Of a stretch of 64,000 bases of DNA, positions 31,201 to 53,700 are shown one piece after another. The DNA lies in NCBI RefSeq assembly GCF_026151205.1, contig NC_087077.1:16652983-16716982 (forward strand). Direction: 5' to 3'. The stretch is from Bolinopsis microptera. Its lineage: Eukaryota > Ctenophora > Tentaculata > Lobata > Bolinopsidae. Numbering within the stretch: position 1 is the stretch's first letter; each line of letters starts with the position of its first letter. Both the position numbers and the translations under genes were made by a program. The notes under the pieces were generated by a model that saw only the letters and a program-made list of their open reading frames with translations, ran no database searches and was not told where the DNA came from.

Positions 31201-34200
31201 ACTAGTAAACCTTCAACCTTGCCACTTCCCCTCAAAACCACTAGTAAACCTTCAACCTTGCCACTTCCCCTCAAAACCACTAGTAAACCTTCAACCTTGC
31301 CACTTCCCCTCAAAACCACTAGTAAACCTTCAACCTTGCCACTTCCCCTCAAAACCACTAGTATACCTTCAACCTTGCCACTTCCCCTCAAAACCACTAG
31401 TAAACCTTCAACCTTGCCACTTCCCCTCAAAACCACTAGTAAACCTTCAACCTTGCCACTTCCCCTCAAAACCACTAGTAAACCTTCAACCTTGCCACTT
31501 CCCCTCAAAACCACTAGTAAACCTTCAACCTTGCCACTTCCCCTCAAAACCACTAGTATACCTTCAACCTTGCCACTTCCCCTCAAAACCACTAGTAAAC
31601 CTTCAACCTTGCCACTTCCCCTCAAAACCACTAGTAAACCTTCAACCTTGCCACTTCCCCTCAAAACCACTAGTAAACCTTCAACCTTGCCACTTCCCCT
31701 CAAAACCACTAGTAAACCTTCAACCTTGCCACTTCCCCTCAAAACCACTAGTAAACCTTCAACCTTGCCACTTCCCCTCAAAACCACTAGTAAACCTTCA
31801 ACCTTGCCACTTCCCCTCAAAACCACTAGTAAACCTTCAACCTTGCCACTTCCCCTCAAAACCACTAGTAAACCTTCAACCTTGCCACTTCCCCTCAAAA
31901 CCACTAGTAAACCTTCAACCTTGCCACTTCCCCTCAAAACCACTAGTAAACCTTCAACCTTGCCACTTCCCCTCAAAACCACTACCTTCAACCTTGCCAC
32001 TTCCCCTCAAAACCACTAGTAAACCTTCAACCTTGCCACCTTCCCTCAAAACCACTAGTAAACCTTCAACCTTGCCACTTCCCCTCAAAACCACTAGTAA
32101 ACCTTCAACCTTGCCACTTCCCCTCAAAACCACTAGTAAACCTTCAACCTTGCCACTTCCCCTCAAAACCACTAGTAAATCTTCAACCTTGCCACTTCCC
32201 CTCAAAACCATTAGTAAACCTTCAACCTTGCCACTTCCCCTCAAAACCACTAGTAAACCTTCAACCTCGCCACTTCCCCTCAAAACCACTAGTAAACCTT
32301 CAACCTTGCCACTTCCCCTCAAAACCATTAGTAAACCTTCAACCTTGCCACTTCCCCTCAAAACCATTAGTAAACCTTCAACCTTGCCACTTCCCCTCAA
32401 AACCACTAGTAAACCTTCAACCTCGCCACTTCCCCTCAAAACCACTAGTAAACCTTCAACCTTGCCACTTCCCCTCAAAACCACTAGTAAACCTTCAACC
32501 TTGCCACTTCCCCTCAAAACCACTAGTAAACCTTCAACCTTGCCACTTCCCCTCAAAACCACTAGTAAACCTTCAACCTTGCCACTTCCCCTAAAAACCA
32601 CTAGAAAACCTTCAACCTTGCCACTTCCCCTCAAAACCACTAGTAAACCTTCAACCTTGCCACTTCCCCTCAAAACCACTAGTAAACCTTCAACCTTGCC
32701 ACTTCCCCTCAAAACCACTAGTAAACCTTCAACCTTGCCACTTCCCCTCAAAACCACTAGTAAACCTTCAACCTTGCCACTTCCCCTCAAAACCACTAGT
32801 AAACCTTCAACCTTGCCACTTCCCCTCAAAACCACTAGTAAACCTTCAACCTTGCCACTTCCCCTAAAAACCACTAGAAAACCTTCAACCTTGCCACTTC
32901 CCCTCAAAACCACTAGTAAACCTTCAACCTTGCTACTTCCCCTCAAAACCACTAGTAAACCTTCAACCTTGCCACTTCCCCTCAAGACCACTAGTAAACC
33001 TTCAACCTTGCCACTTCCCCTCAAAACCACTAGTAAACCTTCAACCTTGCCACTTCCCCTCAAAACCACTAGTAAACCTTCAACCTTGCCACTTCCCCTC
33101 AAAACCACTAGTAAACCCTCAACCTTGCCACTTCCCCTCAAAACCACTAGTAAACCTTCAACCTTGCCACTTCCCCTCAAAACCACTAGTAAACCTTCAA
33201 CCTTGCCACTTCCCCTCAAAACCACTAGTATACCTTCAACCTTGCCACTTCCCCTCAAAACCACTAGTAAACCTTCAACCTTGCCACTTCCCCTCAAAAC
33301 CACTAGTAAACCTTCAACCTTGCCACTTCCCCTCAAAACCACTAGTAAACCTTCAACCTTGCCACTTCCCCTCAAAACCACTAGTAAACCTTCAACCTTG
33401 CCACTTCCCCTCATCCCTAAGCACAATCTTCACAACAACAAAAAAACATTCACATAGTTGTTCCAGCTACAGTAACACCTCAAATTCCAGATGAACATAG
33501 GGATAGTTGCAAGTTCAGAGTCAACGTCTGCTCCCCTATCAACTTCTTCGTTCCCACTAGTGACTCCCCTGAAGAAGAACTTAGTGACGAAGAAAAAGAC
33601 ATGGTCACAGAGCTTCTCAAGAGTGGCATCCCAACTATTGTCCTGTACAGCAGCGCTATCTCCATTAGTGACTTTAAATTGAAATTAGGAGACAGATTGG
33701 ATGGTGTTTCAGATAACGATATTTGGGTGAGAAATATTTTACTTAGAAATCAGTTATAACGGCCACAATTTCCACACGTAATTTTCAATTTTTACCTCAA
33801 TATAAAAGATTAAACAGATAATAAATTTAAATTGCCATGTCAGAATTTGACTGTAATCACGATTTTCACGATGTACAAATACAAGATTCGTGTCTGGATA
33901 AACAACGAAGATAACAACGATGTAGAACAACCGGAACATACATTTATTGACCTTCCCACGGGACTTAAAGATGTCCTTGTGAAAAGTACAGAACACAGTG
34001 GACAGAACGAATTCAAGTAAGATGAAGTATATATACTTAAATATTACGATGCATATCCTTCAATCGGTATTTACTGTTTCTTAATTCTAACCCTGAGTTT
34101 AATTAACCTTTCAATCACCATTTCAATCACAGAGAGCACTGTACTCAACTATACTTGAGCATGGTACTGGGGTTAGAAGAGACGTGTAAGAGCATCATAA

Positions 34201-37200
34201 CTGATGAGGAACTCGGGGATGGGCAGAAAGATGATCTTGTGTCTATGATACATTTATACGATAGACCTGATTTGCTAGGTTCGTGTATCAAATTTTGATA
34301 TTCTCGCGTGATGACTTTCTCATTTTATTCTGATGGCAACTATCTAGCAAGTAGCAAGGTTATGAATACATCGCAAAAAGGCAAATAAGGTAACACCTTC
34401 TAATCTTCTGTTTGAGTTGAAATAAGTAACTAATCCATTACCAGATCTTTGTATAAAGAGCAACTACGACATAAAGTCCTGTTTGTACAACTGTGGAGCT
34501 GGAATAGTAGGGATGATGCTACAAAAGGCTGATAAAACTATCACAAAAGAGATTAAAACTGCCGTGGTGAAATACCAGGTATAACTTCATTGATATAAAG
34601 TTCCCAAAAATGAATCTTAAGCATTAGGTCAATACTATTTCCCTTATGACCAAAGTAATTTTTCCTACAACTCATTCGACCCTTTTTAGGGAGAGGACTT
34701 TAAGAAACGTACAGCCGAATTCTACAATTGTATCTACAAGTTGATAGGGAAAGACGGTCGCTCAATCATTAACCCGATCGATCTTGATAATCCCAACCAA
34801 GCCCAAGGCAAACTAGAGCTGGATGACGTCATGTATATTTTCTACTGCTTCAACGAGGATTGGGAGATGGCAGAGATAATGAGGAAACATTCCGATTTCT
34901 CAATATTCAAATGTTTTGTGGCCATCAAAGCCATGCAGCAGATAAAGAAGATTCAGAGTAACACAGGTTCTTCAGACTATGTTGAGATGCTGGATGATCA
35001 GATAGAGTAAGATAATTAATTATATTGCTAATTGATTATCTTGCTACTCTTCGACTATTTGATCAGATAATCATAATAACACTATTTTTCCAATTTCACC
35101 AAATTTCTATCAGTAAGCATTAGAAGTTGAGCAACATAAACTGATTTTCCGATGTCACTTTCATCATAATGACCGAACAACAAGCTTTACTCTTGTCTCA
35201 GGAAAATGGACAAGCAAGCAGGAAAAATGATTGAGAATAGCTATAAACAAAGTCTTGATATCGGACCAGTCGTCTTCTGGGAACATCATCAATATAACGA
35301 CAAGGTAAGGCATGAAACAATGGAACTATTAGTATTACCTACAGGAAACAACAGAAATTAAAAATTTTACAATAGATCACAGAAACTTGCAATCAAAATT
35401 ATGGATATGAAGTCGCATAAAGGATGCTCTTCATTTATTTGCTCCTTGAACAATAAACGTCCTAATATTCAATTTTCTCCAGACGATAATAGATATGGCA
35501 GGAGAGACAGGATGTCATAGTATTCTGGAGGACAAAACCCACATCCACTCCTACATAACAACCCGGTTTAACGGAGCTCTTGACCCCACTACATGTTGGA
35601 TCAATGTAAGGGTTTGATCTAACGATTTAATAGCAACGCTATTATATTCCATTTCCAATACCTACTTTATCAATAAGACACCTTTGTGCCCTAATTAATA
35701 TGTGTTTTTCAAAGTTATTGATCCTTGGTGCTAAAAGTAGTTACTTATAGTTACTAATATTTACTAATAGTTACTAATAGTTACTAATAGTAGTTACTTA
35801 TAGACTGCCAGTGGTTTCAAAACCATGACTGGCGGAAGGATTGAAACGGTCAAATTGTATCATCAATAAAAGTAACTAAAATTCCAACTCCCAGATAGTT
35901 TTATCGTGGGTAACATGTGGACTGCTAGCTCCCCTCCTAATCAAATTTGTGAGTACCTAACTTTTCTCTGACGATTGTTTTCGTGTGTGACGTCATAAGG
36001 TGAACTTGCGAAATATTATTTATATACAGGGTGGGCCAAAAGTCAGTACCCGTACGTTGGCCTTTATACTTTGATAGCTCAGTCACTAAGTGCCCAATTT
36101 AAATACTTCTTTCTGGTATGACTTAGTACCACCACTGGTTCGAGGAATTTGTCAACTCGAAAAATATTCGCGTTTATTTTTTTCAAATGGAGGTTCATTT
36201 TCACATTTATTTGATAGTTTGGATGGTCTGATCAAGCTAAATGTTATTGAATTGTGTTTGGCCATTCGAATTACGTTTGTCCTGAAAGAATTAGAACTGT
36301 AGCTTCTCAGATGACCGAGATATGAAGCATAACGAGTTTATTCATTACGTGTGATCAGGTGATTGGTTTACCTAATCACGTGATAAGGTGACCCCTTTAA
36401 CTACCCCGTTAAACATTATGGGAATTGTTAAGGGTGCCCAATTATGGTGTCGTGTCACGGTGTCACATAATCACCCAGTCAATTTTGTTAACGAGATACA
36501 GAAAATGCTTGATAACTTCGTCATTTCTAATCCGTTTTGCTTCATGTTTTCAGATCATATGCAACATTTGATAATCTACTGTCTCTGAAAAAATTAGGCG
36601 TTCAGCATGTTCAGAGAAAACAATATAGGTGTTTTAATATTGAATAGGCGTGGTCTAAAATATTCGAATTTTCCAATTTCGACGACGGAATCCTCGAACC
36701 AGTAAGTACAGTATGCCATCTGCAAAGCAACAGCTCTCAAATATAAAACACGGTCAGTAACCAACGTATGCCGTATGGTTACTGACTTTTGGCCCACCCT
36801 GTATTAGTATATATATTGTATTAGTATCCCACTGTAACTGCTGTGCTAGCAATACCACAAAAGTGACAGCGAGATACTGATGAAATACTGAAACAAGCGC
36901 TTTGAACATTTCCTCACTGATTTTACAAATCACAAAATTTGCATCAAGTATGAAACATTATCTAATTTTGGTTGTTACGATTGTTAAGTTGGTTTGCCTG
37001 TGGGTTTTGAAAACAATTCTCTCTGACAGGTACCCAAACAGAGCAAAAGAGATGAGACTACTTTATTTCTAAATGAAAAGGGGACTAAGCGGACATTTCT
37101 TGAGAAAATAACCTCATTCTGGGCGTCTCCCCGCAGCAAGTGTTACCTCCTCATGGTTAGGATATATTTGCTACATTTTTATTTTTTGGCACTTATTCTG

Positions 37201-40200
37201 AATCATAATGTATTGAATTTGACATGAGTTGCAGAGAAGCAATAATCGCCACTGCACTTACCACACGAAACCATAATATTAGAAAACAGCTACGCAGAGA
37301 TCATGTTAACAAATTAAACAAAATCATATTTAAAATTCTCCGTATTATCCTATTTATTTAAAAAGAGACTTACACTTCTACCTAACTTCAGGTAACCTAC
37401 CTGGTGTTCTTGTACTTACAAACTCTGGTGATACTGGACACTACCAGGATAACGCCAACTATATACGGGGATATATATGGGGATCAAGGATGGTACTTCG
37501 GAAAAGAAAAAAGGTAATGTGTAATAATAATGTTAATGAGTCAAAAATATGCCTCACCTCCCCACCAGAATCTATATTTATTTAGATCTTTTTTGTGAAT
37601 GGAGTACAACCTAAATCAATTAAACAAATTCAGTCGACTGTGCGTTTTTGTTTTCTTGTAAGCTTACAATTTACATTCGCTGTATCGAGTCTCACTACCT
37701 ATACCACAGATCAGATGAAGAAGAAAGGCTCCGGTGTTACATTAGAGCGTGTTTGGTGTTTGTGTTATGCTTTCTTACAGTGGAGATCGACATCAGTCAG
37801 GTAACAGTTTGATTTCGATATTAAAATTTTAAAAAAATCTTTGCCTGCTTTGTGTTCAGGTTATCTTCGGTCGTCGCCGTACAGCCAACTATTTTAGATT
37901 TATATCCTTCAGCACGGCACTTTTTATACTTCTTGACGGTCATGTCGAATTTCTTGCCCTCGCATTTTGACCCAGCATCTATCAAAATGAAAAGAACAGA
38001 GAAAGTTACAATCAGGATGAAATTCCTCATCGCAGTAAATAGAGTGAAAGTGAAACGTTAGTGAAGTTTAGATAGTCGAACTGATGCCGATGAGACAAAA
38101 GCAGTTAACACGATATATTGTTAATCACGAAACAATGTCTGTTTGGGAGTTTAAGCCAACATCAAGGTCCCTTCCTGAGCCAATCCATTGCTGTGGAACA
38201 TTTGTCCGGCCAGTTCCAGCAGGGTTAGAGACGAAGTCTTCATCCCAGGAATATCAGAGATGTCAAGAAATATGATCCAACTAATCGGACGAAAGCAGTT
38301 GTTACGATGTGTTCAACAATCAACATGAACCAATGTACTGGGTGTGCCACAGAAAGTGTGACTTTTATGAGTAAGTATAGATTGGTCAGTAAAGAATTAA
38401 CAGTTCATCATTATCATAGTTCTAAGCCACACCACAACCCGTAGACTATTCAAAATTTAAATACAAGCAAAATTGTTGAATTTTCAGTTCCAGTGCAAGC
38501 TGAAATAACAACGATCTGTCACTTGGAAACTATGTCGCCCCACGTGAAACTGTTGCCTCTGAGAGTATCATACTCCTTTAATGAAACTGCCAGTGCCCTT
38601 CATCACTGAACTACCTGTGACAACACGTGCTGTGAAGAATTGCTAATGATCAGATTCGCGACGTGCAATGCGAGATCGAAAGTGTTGTGACTTGTGATCG
38701 TGAGTGGACAGATCTGACTTCTCTGTCATTCCTGGGATGAAGACTTCGTCTCTAACTCTGCTGGAACTGGCCGGACAAATGTTCCACAGCAATGGATTGG
38801 CTCAGGAAGGGACCTTGATGTTGGCTTAAACTCCCAAACAGACATTGTTTCGTGATGAACAAAATATCGCGCGACAACACGGTGACAGCACGTGCTGTGA
38901 AGAATTACTAATGATAATTTCCGTGACGAGCAATGCGAAATCGAAAGTGTTGTGACTTTTGATCGTGAGTGGTCACGATTATGGATTAACAATTACACTC
39001 AATGTAATCTCTGTGCTTAGACTGGTTATGAAGATAATCATTTAAGGAGTCTGAAAATCTTTAAGAATTATACTTGTTCTTTCATGGTTAATGCGATAAA
39101 CCTCAGCAAATTAGATTTTGTCACGGTCCAACCTACCCAATTTAAGACTTACCAGCGAAACTGGTCTAGTATCATCAAACATTAGTTAACCCTACAGTGG
39201 TTTTCAGCTTTTTTGCTTGAAAAAAATACATATATATATACATAATTCTGGTCTAATTTAATATTTTCAGCTTTTGCTTTTTCCACTTTTTAAGAGCTCA
39301 AAAAAAGAAATAAGACAATTTTTATAATTACTGTACAACTTATTCAATGTAAAATAGTGAGATATGTACACTAATTGTACTTAATTAAAAGTGCATTACA
39401 GTATTTTCCGCTATTTACAAACTTCATCTACAGATGGAAATTCTTACTGTTGTAGTGAACAGTAAGAAAAATCACTCTCATAAAATGAACAACAAAAGTA
39501 CACTAACCCAGGTGGTCACGATTATGGATTAACAATTACACTCAATGTAAACTCTGTGCTTAGACTGGTTATGAAGATAATCATTTAAGGAGTCTGAAGA
39601 TCTATAAGAATTATACTTGTTCTTTCATGCCAAATCTATTCATAATGAAATGTATTGCGCAATGTTGTGTGTTACAACTCTGGTTCTGTGAGCCAGGTCC
39701 TTGACATCCTGCTCCACCATTTCGAGGGGCAGGGTTAGTGCAGCTTCTTGACCTACTTTGAGATCCGCCACCACATTTTGCAGAGCACCCAGACCAACCC
39801 CCGAAGCCACTCCATCCTCCATTAATAGGGCAAGCTTGTGTGTTACAATTCTGGATCTGTGAGCCATTTCCTTGACATCCTGCTCCACCATGTTGAGGGG
39901 CAGGGTTAGTGCAGCTTCTTGACCTAACCTGAGATCCTCCACCACATTTAGCAGAACACCCAGCCCAACCCCCAAAGCCACTCCATCCTCCATTAATCGG
40001 GCAAGCTTGTGTGTTACAATTCTGGTTCTGTGAGCCCTGACCTTGACATTCTGCTCCACCATGTTGAGGGGCAGGGTTAGTGCAGCTTCTTGACCTACTT
40101 TGAGATCCTCGACCACATTTAGCAGAGCACTCAGACCAATCTCCGAAGTCAGTCCATCCTCCATTAATCGGACAAGCTTGTGTGTTACAATTCTGGTTCT

Positions 40201-43200
40201 GTGAACCGTGACCTTGACATCCTGCTCCACCATGTCGAGGGGCAGGGTTAGTGCAGCTTCTTGACCTACTTTGAGATCCTCCACCACATTTAGCAGGGCA
40301 CTCAGACCAATCTCCGAAGTCAGTCCATCCTCCATTAATCGGGCAAGCTTGTGTGTTACAATTCTGGTTCTGTGAACCGTGACCTTGACATCCTGCTCCA
40401 CCATGTCGAGGGGCAGGGTTAGTGCAGCTTCTTGACCTACTTTGAGATCCTCCACCACATTTAGCAGAGCACTCAGACCAATCTCCGAAGTCAGTCCATC
40501 CACCATTGACAGGGTCAGTACATGTGTAGCCACATTTTTTTAAAGATGTCTCAGCTTTTGCACACTTCTTTGCCTTCTTTGTGTTCAGGTTATCTTCGGT
40601 CGTCGCCGTACAGCCAACTATTTTAGAATTATATCCTTCAGCACGGCACTTTTTATACTTCTTGACGGTCTTGTCGAATTTCTTGCCCTCGCATTTTGAC
40701 CCAGCATTTATCAAAATGAAAAGAACAGAGAAAGTTACAATCAGGATGAAATTCCTCATCGCAGTAAATAGAGTGAAAGTGAAACGTTAGTGAAGTTTAG
40801 ATAGTCGAACTGATGCCGATGAGTCAAAGGCAGTTAACGCGGTATTTTGTTAATCACGAAACGATGTCTGCTTGGGAGTTTAAGCCAACATCAAGGTCCC
40901 TTCCTGAACCAATCCATTGCTGTAGAACATTTGTCCGGCTGCAGTTCCAGCAGAGTTAAAGACGAAGTCTTCATCCCAGGAATGTCAGAGATGTTAGATC
41001 TGTTAAGAAATATAATCCAACTAATCAGACGAAAGAAGTTGTTACGATGTGTTCAACATAAACCAATGTACTGGGTGTGCCACAGGATGTGTGACTTTTA
41101 TGATTAAGTATAGATTGGTCAATAAAGAATTAAAAGTTCATCATTATCATAGTTCTAAGCCAAACCACAGCGTAGTTGAAATGATCATACCCGTAGACCA
41201 TTCAAAATTTAAATACAAGCAAAATTGTTGAATTTTCAGTTCCAGTGCAAGCTGAAATAACCAATAACAACGATCTGTCACTTGGAAACTATGTCGCCTC
41301 ACATGAGACTGTTGCCTCTGAGAGTATCATACTCCTTTAATGAAAGTGCCAGTGCCCTTCATCACTGAACTACCTGTGACAACACGTGCTGTGAAGAATT
41401 ACTAATGATCATATTCGTGACGTGCAATGCGAGATCGAAAGTGTTGTGACTTGTGATCGTGAGTGGACAGATCTGACTTCTCTGTCATTCCTGGGATGAA
41501 GACTTCGTCGCTAACTCTGCTGGAACTGACTGGAAAAATGTTCCGCACAGCAATGGATTGGCTCCGAAAGGGACCTAACACCTGTCACTTGGAAACTATG
41601 TCGCCTCACATGAGACTGTTGCCTCTGAGAGTATCATACTCCTTTAATGAAAGTGCCAGTGCCCTTCATCACTGAACTACCTGTGACAACACGTGCTGTG
41701 AAGAATTACTAATGATCATATTCGTGACGTGCAATGCGAGATCGAAAGTGTTGTGACTTGTGATCGTGAGTGGACAGATCTGACTTCTCTGTCATTCCTG
41801 GGATGAAGACTTCGTCGCTAACTCTGCTGGAACTGACTGGAAAAATGTTCCGCACAGCAATGGATTGGCTCCGAAAGGGACCTAACACCTCTATAAAAGC
41901 TGTTCTGAAGCAAGTTTTTTAACAATTTAACTGCCCAGAGAGGACGGAATTGAAAGCACTCTCACGGCCTACTTGTTAATTCTAACCTTCATTGTTTATT
42001 TAGGAAACTTCAATCCTCTGTCTGAAGCAAGTTTTTAAACAATTAAACTGCCGAGAGAGGACGTAATTGAAAGCACTGTCATGGCCCACTTGTTAATTTT
42101 AACATTCATGCTAGAAATGCCATTATTTAGCTAGGAAACTTCAATCCTCCGTCTCTCTGATATATCCATTATGAATACTGCCTGATATATATATTTCTCA
42201 ATGGGTGATACTCGTAAAATATTTGTTCCATATATTCCAGGACCGTCGGGACGAGTCCAGCTCGCCTTCGGCGCGCGTCCTGTTAGGTTGTAAACCTACA
42301 AAATATTTCTAAACTGATAATTGTAATTTTTTCACTTACCTTATTTGTAGCGCGATGCACTACTGGGTCGCGCGCGCATCAGATAATGCTTCTCGCAACC
42401 ACTTAAGCAGATCGGCGAGATGCGAAGGATTGACATCGTCAACCAATTACCTTATCGGACCTTATTTGAACGTACATTAATTGAACGCTGGCTAAGTGGC
42501 TTAGTTGGTTAATCTGCTTGTCTACTGGCCCTGACGTTGCGAGTTTGAATCCCAGTTGGGCCAAGATTTCAAAATTGATGGGCAGCCGTCACTCACCAGC
42601 CCATTTCTAGGTCAGTTAAATCCTACTGATGGATCACATCACTAATTATACGTCACTAATTAGTGACATGATCTGATCTCCATGAGCCCCCTAGTAATGA
42701 GGGGGCCTGGAAGTCGGCCTCCCGATCGAAGTGTTGTCACTAGCTTGTGATCGTGAGTGGTCACGATTATGAATTAACAAATACACTCAATGTAATCTCT
42801 GTGCTTAGACTGGTTATGGAGATAATCATTTAAGGAGTCTGAAAATCTATAAGAATTATACTTGTTCTTTCATGCGATAATGCAATAAACCTCAGTAAGT
42901 TAAGACTCACCAGCGAAACTGGTCTAGTATCATCAATCATTATAGTTAACCCTACAGTGGTTTTCAGCTTTTTTGCTTGAAAAAAATACATACATATATA
43001 ATATTATAATCCAATTTACCCAATTTAAAATTAGCCAAAATTAAGTATGAAGTAAGTAATTTAGTAGGCTCTTACTAATTCGCTCGCCCAAAAATTTCAC
43101 GGCCTACTTGTTAATTCTAACCTTCATTGTTTATTTAGGAAACTTCAATCCTCTGTCTGAATTAAGTTTTTTAAACAATTAAACTGCCGAGAGAGGACGT

Positions 43201-46200
43201 AATTGAAAACACTGCCATTGGCCATGGCCCACTTGTTAATTTTAACATTCATGCTAGAAATGCCATTATTTAGGAAACTTCAATCCTCCGTCTCTCTGAT
43301 ATATCCATTATGAATACTGCCTGATATATATATTTCTTAATGGGTGATACTCGTAAAATATTTGTTCCATATATTCCAGGACCGTCGGGACGAGTCCAGC
43401 TCGCCTTCGGCGCGTGTCCTGTTAGGTTGTAAACCTACAAAATATTTCTAAACTGATAATTGTAATTTTTTCACTTACCTTATCGGACCTTATTTGAACG
43501 TACATTAATTGAACGCTGGCTAAGTGGCTTAGTTGGTTAATCTGCTTGTCTACTGGCCCTGACGTTGCGAGTTTGAATCCCAGTTGGGCCAAGATTTCAA
43601 AATTGATGGGCAGCCGTCACTCACCAGCCCATTTCTAGGTCAGTCAAATCCTACTGATGGATCACATCACTAATTTACGTCACTAATTAGTGACATGATC
43701 TGATATCCATGAGCCCCCTAGTAATGAGGGGGCCTGGAAGTCGGCCTCCCGATCGAAGTGTTGTCACTAGCTTGTGATCGTGAGTGGTCACGATTATGAA
43801 TTAACAAATACACTCAATGTAATCTCTGTGCTTAGACTGGTTATGGAGATAATCATTTAAGGAGTCTGAAAATCTATAAGAATTATACTTGTTCTTTCAT
43901 GCGATAATGCAATAAAATTAAACCTCAGTAAGTTAAGACTCACCAGCGAAACTGGTCTAGTATCATCAATCATTATTCATTATAGTTAACCCTACAGTGG
44001 TTTTCAGCTTTTTTGCTTGAAAAAAATACATACATATATAATATTATAATCCAATTTACCCAATTTAAAATTAGCCAAAATTAAGTATGAAGTAAGTAAT
44101 TTAGTAGGCTCTTACTAATTCGCTCGCCCAAAAATTTCACGTGACTTTGGTTTTTATGGTTTTGCAGCCGTACAAAACGGTTTTACATAAACCCTTATCC
44201 CAACCCTAACCCTAACCATAACCCCGAAGCTAACCCTAACCCTTACCACAACCCTAACCCTAACCCGAGCCCTAAACAATCGAATTCGTATTTTACTAGC
44301 CTGTCACGTGACCAAAACGGTTTTTTGCCAATAACTCTCCAGGGAAGCATTTTAACCCTACGTCATGGGGGGTGATTCGGAATCAGCATCAAAAATACAC
44401 TGATTCAGATCACTTTCATACCCAAAGGGCCTTTTCACAAGAATTTTCTTAAAATTTGGGCGAGCGATTTAGTAGAAGCGAACAATAAGTGGTCGTGCTC
44501 TTCGTAGTTCTTGTTTTAGGGATATGAAGGTTAGGGATAATGATATGAAGGTGTTTGCTTTTTCTTACTGGGCGGCGCTCAGTCTGCCATTCTGCCGATT
44601 GCCGAATCTCTATTCGTTTATGAACATTATAGCCTGTGGTCCCCAGGTAAGCTTTTTCTAATGTTTTCTATGTTGCACAGTCATATTTCTCGTCACTTTC
44701 ACTTCAGTCCATGGTGGAACAGTATTAAATCCTAGTTTAAAATTAAATGATGTTTACAAATGAAACACAATATGCACTGAATGATAATTTAGCGTGAAGG
44801 GATCTGTGCTGAAAATTGGATCACTTTTTATAATTACTCATTCTTTAAGAATTAGGGAGATAACGCGAACCAAAATGTTTACAGGTTTATTATTACTCGG
44901 CCATCGATGAGGATACATGTGCCGCTTTATCTTTAGTCGTTAGTATGGTTAACTCCTGAACTGGAAGTTTGCCTTCTTCATCCGTTCCGTCCGCACATCT
45001 TGTCCGCTCTACCATTTTTAAGTCCAATATTTCTGCTAAACATCAATAACAATGAATCCTTGTGTTTGAAAATAGTGTAGGACTGCAAGCTTACTGTTTA
45101 AATAATGTTTTAAAATATGTCTTATTACCTGATATTTAATCGAATTTGGAATCAAAATAAGGTATGTTTTTATAATGTATAGGAAAATTTATTATAAAGG
45201 ACGATGGAGAACGGACGAAATATTCGCAACAATGCAAACATCACCACAGAGAATACAGGAACAATTATATCTAACCCCATTGCTGACACAATCTGTCAAG
45301 AAGAATTGGGCGGGAAGCCAGCAGAAATCCCTCCCACAGAAGTGACAGAGAAAAAACCAATAAAGACTCGGATTGTAGGATTTTCTCTGATGGTATTGAC
45401 GAGTGTAACAGCTACAACTCAAGGGTCCATCGTGAAATACGTCAACGCTCTTCCAACCGGAATGATACTCCTGCCTGTTGCTATCTACATGTTCTGTTTC
45501 TTCTGTACTATAGTCACCTACATGGGCGTGTCTATAACTGATTTTCCCATGAAAAAATGGGTTGCAGTCAGGGTGGCTTTTGGTTCCGTCGCTTACTTAT
45601 GCAAGGTCTGGAGTTTCCAGTTCTTGCCGTTAGGTGATGCCAGTGCTTTGGTATTTACCTCTCCCCTCTTCACCTGCCTGATAGCTCGGATCTTTCTCAA
45701 AGAGAGGATAACTCCAGTTACAATATTCGCTCTATTTACAGGACTTACTGGAGTTGTACTCATTGCTAAACCTTCCTTTATCTTCAACACAGAGTCCCAG
45801 GAATTCCCCTGGTACTACACCTTAGTACCTCTTCTTTCATCATTCACCCTAGCTGTAGTCTACGTCATCCAGCGTAAAATAGCAGGGAAAGTGAATCCTC
45901 TAACTATCTCGTTTTACATTGCAGTCGCCCAGCTCTTCACAGGAGTTGGATGGCAGGTAGCTTCGGGTGATGAATACACACTTCCCCTCTGTTACACCCC
46001 CAGAATACTCCTAGTTATTTGTAGCATCTGTCTTCCAATTGTCTGGGTTGCCATGAACTTGGCGTTGAAGTATGAAAGCGCGGCTTCTGCGTCACTTGTC
46101 AGGAACTTGGACACTGCACTTGCGTTCTTCATACAGATTGTGTTGTTCGGGAATTCAGCGGAGACGTTGTCCTTGATAGGAGCTGTGCTTATTATGTCGG

Positions 46201-48965
46201 GAACTATAATCATTGCTCTTTCTAAAATATTCAATATCACCTGTGGTTTCAAGTTGTAATTTTAGGTCGATCAGAAAAATTGCAGAATGTTCTGTGTGTG
46301 TTGAAGTGGAACTAGTTTCACTTTCACGATGATTTATTTGACGACTAGAGTCCCTGACCAGTACTATATTTTATATTATTACGCTAAATGTTTAGCAGCT
46401 ATAGTAAAAAACTATTTGATTGTATTCCTTGGTATTTGCAAGAAACGTACGTAAGATTGTAAATTGTTTGACTAGCTTTTAAGTCTTAACTGTATCTAGA
46501 AATTGGGAATCACACTACAATAATAAATCATAGATCTGGAAATTCATCTGGAAATTGATCTGGAAACTATAAATTACATAATGAATATAAAAATCAACGC
46601 AAAACAGTTAATGGAGAGCAAAGTGAACTTGAAAAATGTTGATAACCTGTTGTAAGAACCTTTTTTGAGCTCAACCTCGAGCTCTTTCTTGTTCTGTTTA
46701 AGTCGCTGAAACCGATTGCAAAACATTTATAAAAAATGCTATTTTACTTTTATCATAATACCTAAAAAACTTTATTATGCAGGTGAAAAGCTACAACATA
46801 AAGTCCAAGCTGTGTCACTACTTCAGCAATGGTTACAACCAAGTTGATCTGTTCTCAGCATCTACATTCCTTTTATACGTGATCCTTACATTCCTTCTCC
46901 AAGGAAACGAAAACGCTTACCTCGTAGCTAAAGCTGTTTGTGAGTACCTAACTTAACTTTATTTGTGGGTACCGGCCTTACTGGATGGTGCAATCTTGTC
47001 ACTCCGCCATATCCTTCTTATCTGATGCGTGTGTCTTTAAGCCTGAAATTCCTCGGCATAAAGGTACCAAACTCAGAGCTGTAGTTGTACTTCTCCCTTA
47101 ATGAGAGCACTAGAGCATTCTCATTTATTGAACCTATTGAAACAGAGCTGTTCTTAAGATTTGTAAAGTGATGATAAAAGCTTTACTAACTTTAAAGTTA
47201 TACTATGGTGTATATTGCAATTTCGAACTTTTACCGGCCAGATTTTTCAACCGTGCTAATATATCTAAATCTTTTCAGTGTCTGCGTCCTACATCGGGTA
47301 CATCATCCGGTTTACTCAGTTCTTACAACTGTTCGAGGATATTGGACCAAAACTCATCAGTATTAAAAACATGATAGCAGATCTAGTTTTCTTTGCCTCC
47401 TTTTTGTTGCTAACCATCTTCGCTTATGGAATCGTTTCAGGTATGATATTCTGCTAGACAAAAACATTAAAAGGATTTGATACGCTCTTTCAAAAATCTA
47501 GGAATATCTTTGCTGAGGCGTTTCCCTTTAGTTTGATTCTCGGGAATTAAGTCCCGACCATTACATGATATTAAATGATTAAAGTCCAACATGAGCCTAC
47601 TTTTGAGAATTTAATCACAAAACCACTTTCATGTTACAAATTCCAATCAACAAAAATTCCGCAGAGTTTCTGTTGCACCCATATCCGAGGAGTGTACCTG
47701 CTGGTCAGATAGCTGATATTCTCAAGAGACCCTATGTGAATATGTTCGGGGAGTTGGACCTGGACACTCTTGAACAAGGGGTGGGTTTCAAGATGATGAA
47801 TATAATTTTCTAATGATCATGTGACTGTATTGGTGCATCGTTCTATTATATCTATGTGCAATACATATGATTATCACCAATTATCACCAATTAGCAACGA
47901 TTAGCAACATATTACCATGACTATAATTGTTACAGATAGAAACAGGAGTATGTAAGTACGAACACTATCTAGATAGTGTTAAGCTTAACAATGACGGTAC
48001 ATCAGTAGATGAGGCCGCTAACTGCGAGGATTACATTTGCGGGGATACTTGTCGTACATTCAAGTTAGTTATTAATTAATTTTAGTTTAAAAATAAGTTA
48101 TTAATTAATTTTAGTTTATAAATTAGTTGATTATTTGCATAGCTGTATATTATCAAAAGCTATAATGAGGTTTTTGAAGGGAGAACGTTGCATTTCTGGG
48201 CGGAAAAGGAGTAAAACTTCTAAAACATGAGATAAGTTTTATCCTCATTCCTCAAGGTCCTCTCTTTGCCGAGGCAATGGTCTCACAATCAAAATTTTCT
48301 CCAGGTTACTGGGAAGAATAATGCTGGGAATGTACACAATGATGACCGTAATTCTCCTGACAAACCTTCTTGTGTCCATATTCGGCAAAACTTACGACGG
48401 AGATTTTGATAAGACCAGGCAGTTGTGGCAATTGCAAAGATACAAGGTATAAATAATACCTTCCATTTGTAAAAGAGAATAATATGGACTTGAGATTGAA
48501 CAATTTCTGAATGTTTATGTAACAGAATTTTGTCCTGAATTGACAACTTAATTTCATTTCAGCTGGTAAAGGAGTCCGAGTCTCAGTGTTTTTTACCCTT
48601 CCCACCGTTCAACTTCCTACATTCTGTATATACGTGGATAAGATCGTGTCCCTGCTGCTGTAATGGTTCGTAATAACTACAGGATCATCACAACTATTTT
48701 ATCCTACGTCCGGACTCCGGAAGGCCGAAATAGCACAATTGTATCGTACCTTACATACATTACATACCTTTAAACATAAATTACACTAGTGTTATCATTT
48801 CGAAACCCCCTAGCCTCCCCCTCGGCTGATTACGTTATATATGAACGACCCCATATTCTTGCAGGAAAGAATACAGAGTTCTATGAGCAGTATATTAAAG
48901 AGGTGGAGTACCGGTGTGGTAGACAACTTGAGGAAGATGACAAACAGGAAAAAGATGACAAATAG
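28282..48965 (+). CDS. TRPM: TRPM-like cation channel, 24 exons
   Basis: Exons: 28282-28374, 28713-28894, 29062-29177, 29340-29446, 29902-30045, 30261-30426, 33458-33726, 33886-34016, 34133-34278, 34445-34578, 34690-35006, 35202-35304, 35483-35605, 35895-35948, 37030-37155, 37392-37513, 37710-37800, 46783-46939, 47279-47440, 47665-47780, 47936-48063, 48305-48446, 48563-48665, 48865-48965. Phases all agree and total 1110 codons plus TAG, close to TRPM5/TRPM8 length. The N-terminal half carries TRPM homology-region features (PKFLKFAPHEGVLQHL, KFLINVFTA, RKTNSWFMAHSQ, MIHLYDRPDLL). S1 is at about 735-760, S2 at 790-808, S3 starts NQVDLFSAS, S4-S5 includes RFTQFLQLFEDIGPKLI. The pore ends RPYVNMFGELDLD, S6 has ILLTNLLVSIFGKTY, and the TRP helix is LWQLQRYKLVKE. 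The tail is short: no Nudix or kinase domain. Predicted plasma- or organelle-membrane cation channel. Exon 3's donor is the least certain border. Confidence 0.92.
30531..33413. repeat. 39-bp minisatellite, about 74 units, in TRPM intron 6
   Basis: The unit is CCTTGCCACTTCCCCTCAAA followed by ACCACTAGTAAACCTTCAA, repeated head to tail for about 2.88 kb. Because 39 is divisible by three, both strands stay open for hundreds of codons (a PLPLKTTSKPSTL repeat on the plus strand and a VLRGSGKVEGLLV repeat on the minus strand). I regard these as by-products: the flanking TRPM exons splice in phase across the array, and stops lie between exon 6 and the array. A shortened unit at about 31984 shifts the frame and separates a very uniform left half from a more varied right half. 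Confidence 0.95.
36027..36801. mobile_element. Family C MITE, 775-bp copy in TRPM intron 14
   Basis: The ends CAGGGTGGGCCAAAAGTCAG and its reverse complement are flanked by TA. The interior parallels the decayed copy at 10245-10931. No intact transposase frame is present; the ends and TA target fit Tc1/mariner-type elements. Confidence 0.8.
37821..38030 (-). pseudogene. Truncated copy of the TSP1-protein gene
   Basis: It matches the first 60 or so residues of the intact gene at 39611-40759 (same signal peptide, CEGKKFDMTVKKYKKCRAEG) with a few substitutions. It then departs from the homology within the six-Cys domain and ends after 69 codons, before any TSP1 repeat. The homologous block continues through the upstream flank to about 38750, so this is a segmental duplicate cut off about 40 bp after the donor of TRPM exon 17. 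It is unlikely to be functional. Confidence 0.8.
38110..38870. repeat. Inverted repeat upstream of the truncated TSP1 copy
   Basis: About 135 bp at 38110-38255 (AACAATGTCTGTTTGGGAG, GGTCCCTTCCTGAGCCAATC, CGAAGTCTTCATCCCAGGAA) recurs inverted at about 38737-38870. The same pair flanks the upstream region of the intact gene (about 40850-40985 and 41490-41575), so it belongs to the duplicated upstream unit. Confidence 0.7.
39241..39512. mobile_element. Dispersed repeat, family F, copy 1
   Basis: The sequence from AATTCTGGTCTAATTTAATA to AACAACAAAAGTACACTAAC recurs at 49541-49932, where it carries about 120 extra bases in the middle. It interrupts the duplicated 3' flank of the TSP1 gene. There are no clear termini or coding content, so the class is unknown. 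Confidence 0.55.
39611..40759 (-). CDS. Secreted protein with five thrombospondin type-1 repeats
   Basis: A single-exon frame of 382 residues. A signal peptide (about 1-20, FILIVTFSVLFILINA core) leads to a Lys-rich six-Cys domain (about 23-82) whose last cysteines (KKCGYTC) faintly recall ShKT-type domains. Five TSP1 repeats of about 57 residues follow, each with NGGW, CSAKCGGGSQ, SRSCTNPAP and NCNTQ. Repeats 1-3 are almost identical; 4-5 read WSGFGGW instead of WTDFGDW. The protein would be extracellular, in adhesion, matrix or mucus; TSP1 arrays of this kind are common in cnidarian secreted proteins. The usual O-fucosylation site (CSxS/TCG) is absent because Lys occupies the Ser/Thr position. 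The gene is intronless and nested antisense in TRPM intron 17. A 297-codon open frame on the same strand is only a shadow caused by the 171-bp repeat. Confidence 0.88.
   Translation of the reverse strand: MRNFILIVTFSVLFILINAGSKCEGKKFDKTVKKYKKCRAEGYNSKIVGCTATTEDNLNTKKAKKCAKAETSLKKCGYTCTDPVNGGWTDFGDWSECSAKCGGGSQSRSRSCTNPAPRHGGAGCQGHGSQNQNCNTQACPINGGWTDFGDWSECPAKCGGGSQSRSRSCTNPAPRHGGAGCQGHGSQNQNCNTQACPINGGWTDFGDWSECSAKCGRGSQSRSRSCTNPAPQHGGAECQGQGSQNQNCNTQACPINGGWSGFGGWAGCSAKCGGGSQVRSRSCTNPAPQHGGAGCQGNGSQIQNCNTQACPINGGWSGFGGWSGCSAKCGGGSQSRSRSCTNPAPRNGGAGCQGPGSQNQSCNTQHCAIHFIMNRFGMKEQV
40760..41274. promoter_or_regulatory. Upstream flank of TSP1 gene, shared with its truncated copy
   Basis: This 5' flank matches 38031-38520 closely. 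It must contain the promoter of the TSP1 gene, but I see no convincing TATA box or known operator. Open frames in it are not conserved between copies. Confidence 0.4.
41275..41888. repeat. 307-bp tandem duplication
   Basis: The block from CTGTCACTTGGAAACTATGT to GGGACCTAACAC is repeated immediately with an offset of 307 bp (41275-41581 and 41582-41888) and almost no differences, implying a recent event. It lies in the upstream flank of the TSP1 gene. Confidence 0.85.
42199..42302 (-). mobile_element. Family A short element in duplicated block, copy 1
   Basis: Reads from AATGGGTGATACTCG to GGTTGTAAACCTACAA, with ATATTTCT on both sides. The central hairpin is expanded by CTTCGG-like bases. Confidence 0.75.
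42484..42740 (+). mobile_element. tRNA-derived SINE, duplicated block copy 1
   Basis: The head contains a box A-like AAGTGGCTTAGTTGGTTAAT and box B-like TTGCGAGTTTGAATCCCAG at tRNA spacing. An unrelated body with a hairpin at CCCCCTAGTAATGAGGGGG follows. The 3' limit is approximate. Confidence 0.6.
43338..43441 (-). mobile_element. Family A short element in duplicated block, copy 2
   Basis: The duplicate of the element at 42199, again flanked by ATATTTCT on each side, so it was copied with the block rather than inserted anew. Confidence 0.75.
43511..43765 (+). mobile_element. tRNA-derived SINE, duplicated block copy 2
   Basis: The duplicate of the SINE at 42484 with very few changes: same box A and B and the same CCCCCTAGTAATGAGGGGG hairpin. 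Confidence 0.6.
44108..44480. mobile_element. MITE with telomere-like CCCTAA tract
   Basis: The ends TACTAATTCGCTCGCCCAAA and TTTGGGCGAGCGATTTAGTA form an inverted repeat of about 25 bp. The interior holds a degenerate CCCTAA tract (about 44197-44275) and the subterminal pair TTCACGTGACTTTGG / GTCACGTGACCAAAACGG. No open frame is present. Confidence 0.65.
44565..44650 (+). mobile_element. Family B MITE
   Basis: An 86-bp copy from TTACTGGGCGGCGCTCAGTC to GTGGTCCCCAGGTAA with GCTTTTTC on both sides (44557-44564 and 44651-44658). Confidence 0.8.
45204..46259 (+). CDS. EamA/DMT-family transporter, SLC35G-like
   Basis: An uninterrupted 351-residue frame. After a polar N-terminus of about 55 residues, hydrophobic segments are arranged as two EamA repeats of five, typical of the drug/metabolite transporter superfamily. 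The first repeat ends with GDASALVFTSPLFTCLIARI, FLKERITP and TGVVLIAKPSFIF, the pattern seen in SLC35G1-type proteins; the second includes LVRNLDTALAFFIQIVLFG and closes with a hydrophobic helix. Probable multi-pass membrane transporter of the plasma membrane or secretory pathway; its substrate is unknown. It has no introns and lies in the same orientation as the host gene inside TRPM intron 17, which suggests a retrocopy origin. The start is the first ATG in a frame preceded by AT-rich non-coding sequence. Confidence 0.88.
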   Translation: MENGRNIRNNANITTENTGTIISNPIADTICQEELGGKPAEIPPTEVTEKKPIKTRIVGFSLMVLTSVTATTQGSIVKYVNALPTGMILLPVAIYMFCFFCTIVTYMGVSITDFPMKKWVAVRVAFGSVAYLCKVWSFQFLPLGDASALVFTSPLFTCLIARIFLKERITPVTIFALFTGLTGVVLIAKPSFIFNTESQEFPWYYTLVPLLSSFTLAVVYVIQRKIAGKVNPLTISFYIAVAQLFTGVGWQVASGDEYTLPLCYTPRILLVICSICLPIVWVAMNLALKYESAASASLVRNLDTALAFFIQIVLFGNSAETLSLIGAVLIMSGTIIIALSKIFNITCGFKL

Positions 48966-49540
48966 TAAATAGGAATGATGATTTATTTTGGAGATAAAAA
49001 ATAGGAATGATGACTGATATTTATTTGTGTTTCTGTTGGAGACGGATAATAGTCGGAGACGAATATGTCGGTGATTTCCTCAAGTAAAACTTACTTATAG
49101 TACATGAATTTGAAATGGTATTTGATTCAGAATTATACCCTGATGGTATGTGCCAACAACTAAAGGTTGCAATTACAGTTGGACATATTTCTGAGAAATG
49201 ATCACTAAGAATCAGTGCAATCTTTTACTCTTGGTAGAGAAAGATCGTTAAAAAGCATTAAGCAGCCTAAAGTTAGCTCAATAACTGCAATGTTACGCTC
49301 CAACATAAGGAACTAGGACGTCCACCCCTGTTTTTTAAGTTGCTACTAGCGGACCAGCGGTGTGTTCTTAACTGAATAGTAAATCTGTAATAATGGGACG
49401 GGATTATTTTTACATTGTTATATATGATGAAATATGGTTGAGTCAAGTTTTTTGAGCTTAGTATTGGAACTCTTTGCTTTTATCATATAGATATTGAGAT
49501 TGCATTTTATTTTAAAATTTCTGATTGTTGTTAATAATAA
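48966..49540. other. TRPM 3' flank, nothing else recognised
   Basis: Probable 3' UTR and flank of the TRPM gene. No gene or repeat is seen apart from a GATTTAT...GGAATGATGA short duplication just after the stop codon. Confidence 0.4.
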
Positions 49541-49932
49541 TATAATTCTGGTTTAGTTTAATATTTTTAGCTGTTGCTTTTTCCGCTTTTTAAGAGCTCA
49601 AAAAAAGAAATAAGACAATTTTTATAATTACTCTACAACTTATTCAATGTTAAATATAAGTGACATATGTACACTAATTGTACTTAATTAAAAGTACATC
49701 ACAGACTTTTCCGCTATTTACAAACTTCATCAAAACTTCTACATAACATATTATACATAATTTAGGGAAAATGTCTGAGATGAAAAACAAATGAAAATAC
49801 GACTAAAAATTCGTAACCAGTAAAAATTCTTAACTTATATAATACTGAATCTACAGATGAAAATTCTTACTGTCGTAGTGTACAGTAAGAAAAATCACTC
49901 TCATAAAATGAACAACAAAAGTAAAATAACCC
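49541..49932. mobile_element. Dispersed repeat, family F, copy 2
   Basis: The longer relative of 39241-39512, with about 120 extra bases (about 49737-49855). Shared parts include AAGAGCTCAAAAAAAGAAAT and GAAAAATCACTCTCATAAAA. The class is unknown. Confidence 0.55.
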
Positions 49933-50777
49933 ACGCGCCACTGCACATTATCTTTGAAATGTTGCAATTGCAAAAACTGATACAACTTGGAGATATATTT
50001 GTCACAGAATGTTTAAAATGATCCCATAATAAATTACCTGCATCTAAATGTTGAAATAATCCTGCCACAAGCACTCGGATAATGATCTATATGATCCAGA
50101 TCACATTGTTTAGGCAAGACCCCGAAATATTATGCCACGTTGTTAGCACAATCTGCTCTAATCAGCCAGGGTTTGTTTCACTTCTTCTGATGAATTGGCA
50201 AAAGTAATCATGGGAGGGGGAGGGGCCAACTTCATCGCATAAAATTGTGCTAGGACTAAACCGTTGAGTCAACAGGGGTTAAAAATACCCAAAAACACTA
50301 CATTCTTAAACAAACAGCGTTCCTGATGTTTGAATAGACCGCGAAAATTTTGTATTTAAAGACGCAACGAAAATGATGACTAACAAACGCAATGATGGCC
50401 GGAAACATTACCCTAATTGATGCTTACTTATGAGCTATTTCTAGTTTTTTAGCGGGTTTCAATGGTGGCAATATAATATTAAATATATTTGTTCATTTTA
50501 AACGCGTTGTAAATCTTCGAAGACAGATAGATAAACTGCAAGTATATATTTATGAATATGAGATCACGATTTAAAAAAGATCCCAGCCACAGTTTAACGG
50601 TTAAAGTTGAAACCTAAACTGTGGCTGGCATCTCTTATAAATTGTAATTTGTAGTGTGAACTGGTCATGGTCATTTTCTTAAATCTTTCCAAGGAAAAAA
50701 CCGAACACTTTAAAAGTCCAGATTATACCAGTCCTTGTTATAGTTTTACAGTTTTAGAGTTTTATAGTTTTATAGTT
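49933..50777. other. Intergenic, nothing recognised
   Basis: A short hairpin (ATCCCAGCCACAGTTTAACG... against ...AACTGTGGCTGG) lies at about 50580-50627. A GTTTTATA repeat leads into the last exon of the minus-strand gene. No other gene is seen. Confidence 0.4.
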
Positions 50778-53700
50778 TTAGAGTATGGTACACGCTTTAG
50801 ATTTGGTCTGGTCAGCAACCTCCTTAACATCCTCGTTAGTTTTAACAGCTTTAGCAGTGGTTTTAAACAGGTTACCTTCCTCTCTTGCTTTAGATACCTT
50901 CATCTTGAAAACTGAGGAGAGATGCGGGGAAACAGGACTTTAGTCTTGCTGTTCAGAGACAAATTTTACACAAGCCTTATAGTTCTGTGCAGAGACACTG
51001 AGACAGATTTTACACAAGTTCTAAAACACATCTAAATCTTAACTCTAAAGTTAAACTTCCACAACCAAATCGTATTATTGGAGATCATGCATTGAGTTAA
51101 TTCGATATTTATGTTAGAACTAAGATAATAATTGTACCAAAAAGAAGCATATAAGTCTAATAATGTAGCATTCTCAATACACGTGGCAATGGAGAGGAGG
51201 TGGCCGTGCAGGTAACATCAGCACGTGACAGGAATGCTGGAATTTGATTGGTCACAACTGCAAGCATTGGTTAATCACTAAATCACTGTCACGTGCCAGA
51301 AAAAAACTTGCACCACCTCCCCTCTATCACTCACTTCTAATACTGACACCAATTTGACCACTTCGAAGTTCGAGGTTTACAATTTAAGCTCATCTTTTTT
51401 AGAATTTTTTCTAGAATTTTTTCTAAATTTTAGAACAGCAAGAAGTCCTGTTGTACCCGGTGAATTGGTTAGTTGCTAATATAACTAGTTGATGTTAGTT
51501 GCTATTTGCTAATGTTTAACAATCAATAAAACAATGAGTTTATAGATCATCTTACAGATTGATTTGTCAGCCTTAGATTCTTGTAGGAGCCTGCCCTAGA
51601 TAATTCACGAAATAAATAACGAACAAGGACTATTCTCCCATTTTAAAAACACTATTGTCATTATAATAATCTCTTACCTGCCACACAGATCCCCATAGAA
51701 TCCGCATTTGACTCCAGAATCTTCTGGAGGTCAGCAACCTGTAAAATGTAAATAATAGTTTTAAAAAACGGAGATAGATTATTAGTTATAAAGTTTAATT
51801 AGAACATAACTGATTTTAGATTTTCTCGAATATAGCTGCATTTGACCAGCAGGTTTAAGGCATTTGAAACAGTCAAAAAAGTTTAAGTTCTATATCTTTT
51901 ACGGTTTTTGCGGAAATTCGTGTTAAAGTTGATGCCATGGTGTGTCAGTAAAATAGTACGGATATATAAATAAATATATAAGGATGGAAGGATGTGGTTA
52001 TTAGACCTTTTGACAAAGGGGTAGGATTCTTTCTTCTTGGAGAGGAAGAATATATTCAACGAATAGGTGTACATTTGAATGATAGATCTGTATATAGTAT
52101 TGTAAATAATGTAGATGATTTAGTTTCAGAATTAATTGATAAAATTTCATGTTGGACAGTCAAGTATAAAGAAGAATTAGGTATGTCTAAGAAGGTCAGG
52201 GAGTGGGTTATTCCGTGTACGGAGCTCAACCAGCCTGGTAATATGTACCTGAATCCCAAGGCCCACAAGCCACCTTTGTACCCTGGGAGGATGATTACTA
52301 CTGGATGTGGTTCGTACATTGAGAACCTATCTGCCCTGACTGCATACGAATTGAAGAAGGCTATTTTAGATTATAGAATTATTGACACCCCTCATTTTTT
52401 GAGGAAGATTGATAGCTTGAATGAGTCCACCATATTGTTGGGTAAGGAGGTGATACATGTTGCCATAGATATATCCAACATGTTCACCAATATCCCCAGG
52501 GATATGGGGATCCAACAATGCACCAAGCACCTGAATGAAAGAAGTAGTTATGATCAATTGTTCAGTACAGAATGCATTATTAGTGCTCTAGAAATCACTC
52601 TTGATTACAACATAGCTTCGTTCAACGGTATAACATACCGTCAGGAGCGTGGAGCGGCGATGGGTCCTAAGAACTCATGTGAGTATGCAGATTGTGCAAT
52701 GGATAAGATCGATATTTTAGTTAATGAAAGAGATTTAGAACATGGCCCGCCACACAGACCAGCATTCTGGGGTAGGTTGCGTGACGATATATACATGGCC
52801 TGGCCTGGTACTGTTGAGGAGCTTCTACAATTTATGGAATGGCTCAATAGTATCCATCCGGACCTTGTGTTTACTTACGACTACTCTAAGGATGGTGTTG
52901 AGTTTTTAGACACCTATGTCTATGCTGTTGGCGATGTTATTCATACCAAACTTTACTCTAAGCCCAGTGACACCCACTGCTATCTCATCCCCACCTCATG
53001 TCATAGGAGCCATGTTCTCAAAAACATACCCTATGGTGTGGCGAGGCGAGTGAGGCAGAACAATAGCGAAGACACTAATTTCTTAGAGCAAAGGGAGGTA
53101 TATACTGGTTACCTTGTAGCCCGTGGTTACCATTCTAGTATTGTAGACGATGCTTTCAACAAATTTAGTGATATAACCAATAGGAAAAACTTGTATGCCC
53201 CTAAAAATAAGGATGAGACGACTACTTGTCTAATACCCATGGTGATGGATCAAAATCCAGCACTTCCCAACATGGGGAGCATTATTCACAAGTATAAGCA
53301 CCTTCTTAATCTCGATCCAGCCTTGAAGAAGCTAGTACGTGCTGACAGTGTATTTGTAAGTCACCGAAAGAATCAAACTATCGGTGGCATGCTTGTACAC
53401 AATAAGTATCGTGCTAGTGGAACTGTAAGCAGTGATAGAGATGGAGAAGCCACTGCTAGTCAATTTCTTGAACCAGACGCTGCAATATTGCCGGCTGTTC
53501 GGGAGGCTGACAACGCAGGGTGCCATGCCTGTGGAAAATGCTATGTTTGTAAGCAATGTTTCCTGTCCCCTTGTTCCAAATTTAGTAGTCACCATTCCAA
53601 ACAAGTTTTCCCTATTACTAAATATATAACTTGTCAGAGTAATAACCTTATTTATTTAATGGAGTGTAGAACTTGTAAACAGTCGTATGTAGGATATACT

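Follow-up and report, generated by a model that had tools for sequence, protein, structure and literature searches.

A probable nested-gene arrangement in the ctenophore Bolinopsis microptera: two unrelated single-frame genes within one long intron of a TRPM-like gene

The closest described system is that of another comb jelly, Hormiphora californensis, where a published survey counts 1,654 host genes with 2,357 genes nested in their introns, many of the latter parallel to the host, and reports leaders on 56% of Iso-Seq reads (PMC8527503). A limited literature search returned nothing on the locus described below, and nothing naming leader trans-splicing as a mechanism by which nested genes are released. 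In the window analysed here (the whole 64-kb stretch of DNA), we find two genes that each lie wholly within one intron of a TRPM-like host, the host exons on both sides forming, on the basis of sequence, one gene. We consider it very probable that this is a nested-gene arrangement in which an old phase-0 intron between the S2 and S3 exons, about 0.2 kb long in two paralogues and 8,982 bp long here, has grown at the DNA level and not by retroposition, and that it holds two unrelated guests from large families with many single-frame members.

The host model consists of 11 exons (35483-48965) separated by 10 GT-AG introns, which together give a single 467-aa open frame with its stop at 48965. The exon boundaries were picked by hand to preserve the frame and GT-AG, and neither property is an independent test of the model. 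Its exons and the intron of interest are as follows.

35483..35605, plus strand: TRPM-like host exon (before S1), aligned with the single-frame paralogue L007
35895..35948, plus strand: TRPM-like host exon (before S1)
37030..37209, plus strand: TRPM-like host exon (S1), PDB alignment
37663..37800, plus strand: TRPM-like host exon (S2), phase 0 end after VEIDISQ, same intron position in L005 and L006
37801..46782, plus strand: host intron between S2 and S3, 8,982 bp (183 and 216 bp in two paralogues)
46783..46939, plus strand: TRPM-like host exon (S3), phase 0 start, PDB alignment
47279..47440, plus strand: TRPM-like host exon (S4-S5), PDB alignment
47665..47780, plus strand: TRPM-like host exon (pore region), PDB alignment
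47936..48063, plus strand: TRPM-like host exon (between pore and S6)
48305..48446, plus strand: TRPM-like host exon (S6), PDB alignment
48563..48665, plus strand: TRPM-like host exon (after S6), PDB alignment
48865..48965, plus strand: TRPM-like host last exon and stop

The identity of the host comes from a phmmer search of PDB, in which 71 sequences matched the host protein at E <=0.001. The best 60 of these 71 are led by 6co7 (named TRPM-like 2; best, E 5.3e-23), TRPM4, TRPM2, TRPM5 and TRPM8, and all 60 are TRPM by name except 6pw4 ('TRP-like ion channel') and one 'MKIAA1616 protein', which we take to be TRPM3; 6co7 is presumably from Nematostella. The likeness to 6co7, TRPM4, TRPM5 and TRPM8 extends over S1-S6 and the segment after S6, and the first 6co7 alignment, which is gapped, covers query residues 79-308 and crosses the S2/S3 junction after residue 165. 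Nevertheless, the host is distant from 6co7 and the other TRPM channels, and the host model does not recover an N-terminal melastatin homology region. Pfam Ion_trans matched residues 119-383 of the spliced model at 23.4 bits, slightly under the Pfam cut-off of 25, and five candidate pieces of the N-terminal part gave no TRPM-type Pfam match; the exons at 28-35 kb stay outside the assembled frame. Two further exons (34690-35006 and 35185-35304) were drawn and then dropped from the 467-aa model; their phases do not join as drawn. Upstream of the exons described, positions 30533-33413 are occupied by a 39-bp minisatellite of 74 units (98% matching) with a very strong GC skew. On the other side of the gene, a 682-aa open frame on the plus strand (51982-54030) resembles, in our reading, a reverse transcriptase of Penelope type whose end is GIY-YIG-like.

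The preliminary description of this DNA placed an intron of about 9 kb between position 37800 and position 46783, both in phase 0, and these boundaries hold: the S2 exon ends AGTCAG/gtaacagt and the S3 exon begins tattatgcag/GTGAAA. The other 11 introns of the host model as drawn, two of which border exons excluded from the final model, measure only 116-1081 bp. We compared the S2-S3 intron with TRPM paralogues of the same genome, where six loci (L005-L010) were sampled and the intron boundary was compared in five (L005-L009). L006 and L005 have a phase-0 intron at the identical codon boundary, of 216 bp and 183 bp respectively, so that the intron is some 40-50 times longer in the host; the residues at the junction are VEIRQ/IYHS and LEMRQ/VYHS in L006 and L005, against VEIDISQ/VKSY in the host. 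In L008 and L009 an intron lies close by at a different boundary, as judged by eye. L007 (on C11) is a paralogue with a single 1386-aa open frame, which aligns with query residues 1-427, straight through the junction, at 21% identity. Because its position is shared with paralogues, the S2-S3 intron is best read, from these alignments, as old.

The same comparison bears on whether there is one host at all, since the exons on either side of the intron might derive from two distinct genes, with an mRNA each, or from one TRPM gene that is broken. That they have been joined from DNA alone, with the N-terminal exons left out of the assembled frame, leaves some room for this explanation. Against it, the frame runs continuously across the flanking exons, the PDB alignment passes through the junction, the same intron is present in L005 and L006, and L007 spans the junction in one frame. 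Two separate mRNAs are unlikely in view of the intron position shared with L005 and L006 and of the single-frame L007, and we regard a split or broken host as highly improbable. The earlier proposal of one TRPM-like host with one large intron is thus upheld, and the host mRNA would be made by splicing over the whole 8,982-bp intron.

The two guests occupy different parts of this intron:

39611..40759, minus strand: guest 1, a 382-aa gene intact in a single frame; it has a start that looks signal-like by eye, a Cys-rich N-terminal part and five TSP1 repeats (ORF and Pfam)
45204..46259, plus strand (host strand): guest 2, an EamA/DMT transporter of 351 aa, likewise intact in a single frame (ORF and Pfam)

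Guest 1 resembles TSP1-repeat proteins (PF00090) in its five repeats, seen as five Pfam TSP_1 matches (E 2.2e-45), and differs in its Cys-rich N-terminal part, which is common to relatives in the same genome; no NCBIfam match was obtained. Its product is probably secreted. A search of the genome (264.65 Mb, 232 contigs) with guest 1 gave at least 134 matches including the guest itself, with 108 of 661 candidates scored, and among the 133 other matches listed 10 have no stop and reach from residue 17 or before to at least residue 196. TSP1-repeat matches are densely clustered at C1:10.90-10.95 Mb, where their open frames reach 2,346 codons. Guest 2 is likened to EamA/DMT transporters through its two EamA stretches (Pfam EamA, E 4.1e-19), an assignment at the level of the family, and it has no PDB relative by sequence. 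Searching the genome with guest 2 returned 40 matches including the guest, and 20 of the 39 others cover at least 285 of its 351 residues in a single frame uninterrupted by stops, with 49-51% identity for the nearest of them. A closer match at C4:4754329 (67% over 45 aa) is a broken piece adjoining a minisatellite. Two complete genes on opposite strands, a secreted TSP1-repeat gene on the minus strand and an SLC35G-like transporter on the plus strand, had been proposed from first reading of the intron; both are confirmed, the transporter as a member of the EamA/DMT family.

What finds no support is the suggestion that both intronless guests look like retrocopies. Under that explanation, mRNAs of multi-exon parents would have been reverse-transcribed and inserted in the TRPM intron, and the absence of coding introns from both guests is what it has in its favor. 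Its premise, however, was that intronless genes stand out here, and genome-wide this fails: it is not unusual for large genes to lack coding introns, as L007 illustrates and as do 10 of 32 Lig_chan matches that lie in frames of at least 900 codons (glutamate-receptor loci). Single-frame relatives are numerous for both guests, and for this reason single-frame structure gives no hint of retroposition here. In the transporter family such structure is, judging by the genome matches, common and also old, given that the closest single-frame relatives are 49-51% identical. These closest full-length paralogues are themselves single-frame and the sole closer fragment is broken, and no close multi-exon parent was found for either guest among the genome matches listed. 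Multi-exon relatives of the transporter may exist in the form of two pairs of adjacent pieces, C1:7212234 with C1:7216586 (35% and 30%) and C8:15122508 with C8:15123050 (32% and 31%). No poly-A run was seen by eye in 46260-46782, between guest 2 and the S3 exon. Finally, a second, truncated copy of guest 1 includes non-coding 5' flank, so at least that copy is a DNA duplication, although this is silent on how the first copy arrived. We hold retroposition of the two guests to be very unlikely.

The changes that can be read in the intron are, as far as its sequence goes, changes at the DNA level, and by themselves they are silent on the first arrival of either guest. The principal features are these:

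37827..38027, minus strand: 67-codon truncated copy of guest 1; relative to the intact gene, 7 of its codons differ nonsynonymously and 0 synonymously, and the last 3 of these differences fall in its frayed end
41275..41890, plus strand: exact tandem duplication, 307-bp unit
41962..44141, plus strand: roughly 1-kb tandem duplication (blastn: 95.7% and 97.5%)
44107..44482, no strand assigned: dispersed element of some 375 bp whose inverted ends measure 13 bp each (44120-44132, 44455-44467)

The truncated copy of guest 1 is held in a 1-kb segment (37838-38815) that repeats 40567-41576 at 91.7% (blastn), and the homology found by blastn begins 37 bp past the host splice donor. A 155-nt inverted repeat (38111-38265 and 38715-38869, 96% complementary) adjoins the truncated copy. 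Scoring of 40 places out of 6,308 candidates yielded at least 38 further copies of the dispersed element at 94-97%; within the element, at 44190-44275, are telomere-like AACCCT repeats (67% matching). A further piece of the intron, 39232-39510, recurs at 91-94% at 49534-49933, just 3' of the host gene. In our favored account, growth of the intron would have taken place at the DNA level, through insertion and tandem duplication of this kind and not through retroposition. An Rfam search of 37000-47500 gave nothing at gathering scores.

We also considered whether the TSP1 gene was carried by a common mobile unit. The 5' flank of guest 1 (40787-42126) has 15 genome matches, of which 9 are in the host intron (itself included) and 6 elsewhere (one each on C4, C8 and C65 and three on C5), the latter with its last 250 bp only, and none of these 6 lies within 100 kb of any TSP1 match listed. 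The 3' flank (38950-39613) has 5 genome matches, 3 in the host intron (itself included) and 2 beyond the 3' end of the host gene, at 49542-49933. The flank searches gave no sign of a shared unit and the idea was rejected. The reading of four repeats of the region around the 3' end of guest 1 (at 38956, 39499, 42744 and 43771) as relics of a gene array was also dropped; by eye, what they have in common with guest 1 is confined to its final five codons and the adjoining 3' flank.

Near-identical duplications are hard to assemble, and it might be argued from their presence in this intron that the guests are there through an assembly or haplotype artefact. The locus, however, lies deep within a 20.9-Mb contig, guest 2 is outside the duplications, and no near-identical full-length copy of either guest appears elsewhere among the matches listed, all of which makes such an artefact extremely improbable.

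With regard to expression, guest 1, on the minus strand, would use its own promoter; it has no noteworthy acceptor-like site before its ATG and one ATTAAA downstream. Guest 2 is on the host strand, and from this geometry it is predicted to be transcribed within the TRPM pre-mRNA, as the preliminary description had it. Its own mRNA may be made from a promoter of its own or from the host pre-mRNA, in either case ending near a signal in the 3' part of the intron:

46522..46527, plus strand: AATAAA, 261 bp short of the S3 exon and 3' of guest 2; the intron contains 5 such hexamers in sense orientation

We treat this AATAAA as weak evidence because there are five in sense orientation in the intron, one of them inside the coding frame of guest 2, and because 48966-49600, 3' of the host stop, contains neither of the hexamers AATAAA and ATTAAA.

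A more specific possibility is that guest 2 is without a promoter of its own and that the TRPM pre-mRNA yields it, through trans-splicing of the spliced leader immediately ahead of its ATG and polyadenylation near 46522. This would be compatible with nesting, and competes with the account above only on how guest 2 is expressed. The trimmed Hormiphora leader gave 0 genome matches at up to 3 mismatches, and a leader-like sequence was found via its conserved end; by eye it shares blocks with the Hormiphora leader. The conserved end, AATTTGAGGTANGT, has 46 genome matches against 13 for the reversed pattern, and of 8 loci fetched for it, 5 have the full leader, 1 a partial leader and 2 none. Genome-wide there are 298 leader-like loci at up to 3 mismatches, compared with 0 for the reversed control; none is within the 64-kb window. 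GTATGA follows the leader in many of the copies listed. The leader-like loci are also in keeping with a comb jelly genome. Of two glutamate-receptor loci compared with PDB, one has ML032222a, a Mnemiopsis protein, as its best hit, while in the other kainate and AMPA receptors precede that protein, which stands at ranks 30-32. The 298 loci speak for the release of guest 2 by trans-splicing, as does the frequency of the leader in Hormiphora, where it is on 56% of Iso-Seq reads (PMC8527503).

We looked for acceptor-like sites ahead of 15 of the 21 full-length transporter genes, guest 2 included and six other frames left out, taking the first Met of each frame as the start codon. In all 15, the highest-scoring site of the 75 nt that precede the ATG surpassed that of the adjacent upstream 75 nt; it was the best of five windows in 9 of the 15 and lay within 24 nt of the ATG in 13. 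The combined shuffle P was 0.0004, or 0.0006 without L022 (L021 and L022 are near-copies). Across the family, this signal favors trans-splicing, but the case for guest 2 itself is poorer: its own site at 45200 is weak (shuffle P 0.127), and stronger AG sites lie farther upstream at 44343 and 44885. Only 2 of the 15 genes have a single-gene shuffle P <0.05. A fixed score threshold is passed by all 15 genes and also by 39 of 60 control windows. The 13 sites that trained the scoring matrix all come from a single gene; one is doubtful, and they include the acceptors of the dropped exons 34690-35006 and 35185-35304; for the later scan of AG sites upstream of guest 2, only 35185 was removed from these training sites. 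In addition, a gene with its own promoter would also predict a leader acceptor, and an intron in the 5' UTR would look identical. We therefore regard leader trans-splicing or a 5'-UTR intron as plausible for the transporter family, and release of a promoterless guest 2 from the TRPM pre-mRNA as unlikely.

Carried further, the intron could be a hidden operon, with guest 2 freed from the TRPM pre-mRNA by leader trans-splicing upstream of 45204 and polyadenylation near 46522. If this took place before splicing of the host intron, the host mRNA would end after S2, and reading past 37800 into the intron adds VTV and then a stop, so that a two-helix truncated channel would be made. TRPM2-S of vertebrates is a truncated channel form, like the product proposed here. 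We rate this scenario as quite unlikely; were it true, it would follow that ctenophores tolerate same-strand nested genes because leader trans-splicing already supplies the cap.

Whichever way guest 2 is expressed, the nested arrangement that we favor is a well-supported further example of nesting already known as common in comb jellies. As in Hormiphora californensis, the genes lie wholly in one host intron in a ctenophore, many of the Hormiphora examples being host-parallel, as guest 2 is, and leader trans-splicing being widespread; the part of that paper considered does not tie nesting to leader trans-splicing (PMC8527503). Taken alone, the locus is an ordinary case of a class that numbers thousands in this related species. 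It is also a concrete place to test how a same-strand nested gene is handled in an animal with leader trans-splicing. The Hormiphora survey gives counts (PMC8527503), whereas the present locus is in another genome and its intron has been compared with paralogues. From these same-genome paralogues the probable 'before' state of the host intron can be read (about 0.2 kb, at the same position and in the same phase), and the growth of a guest-bearing intron can therefore be followed.
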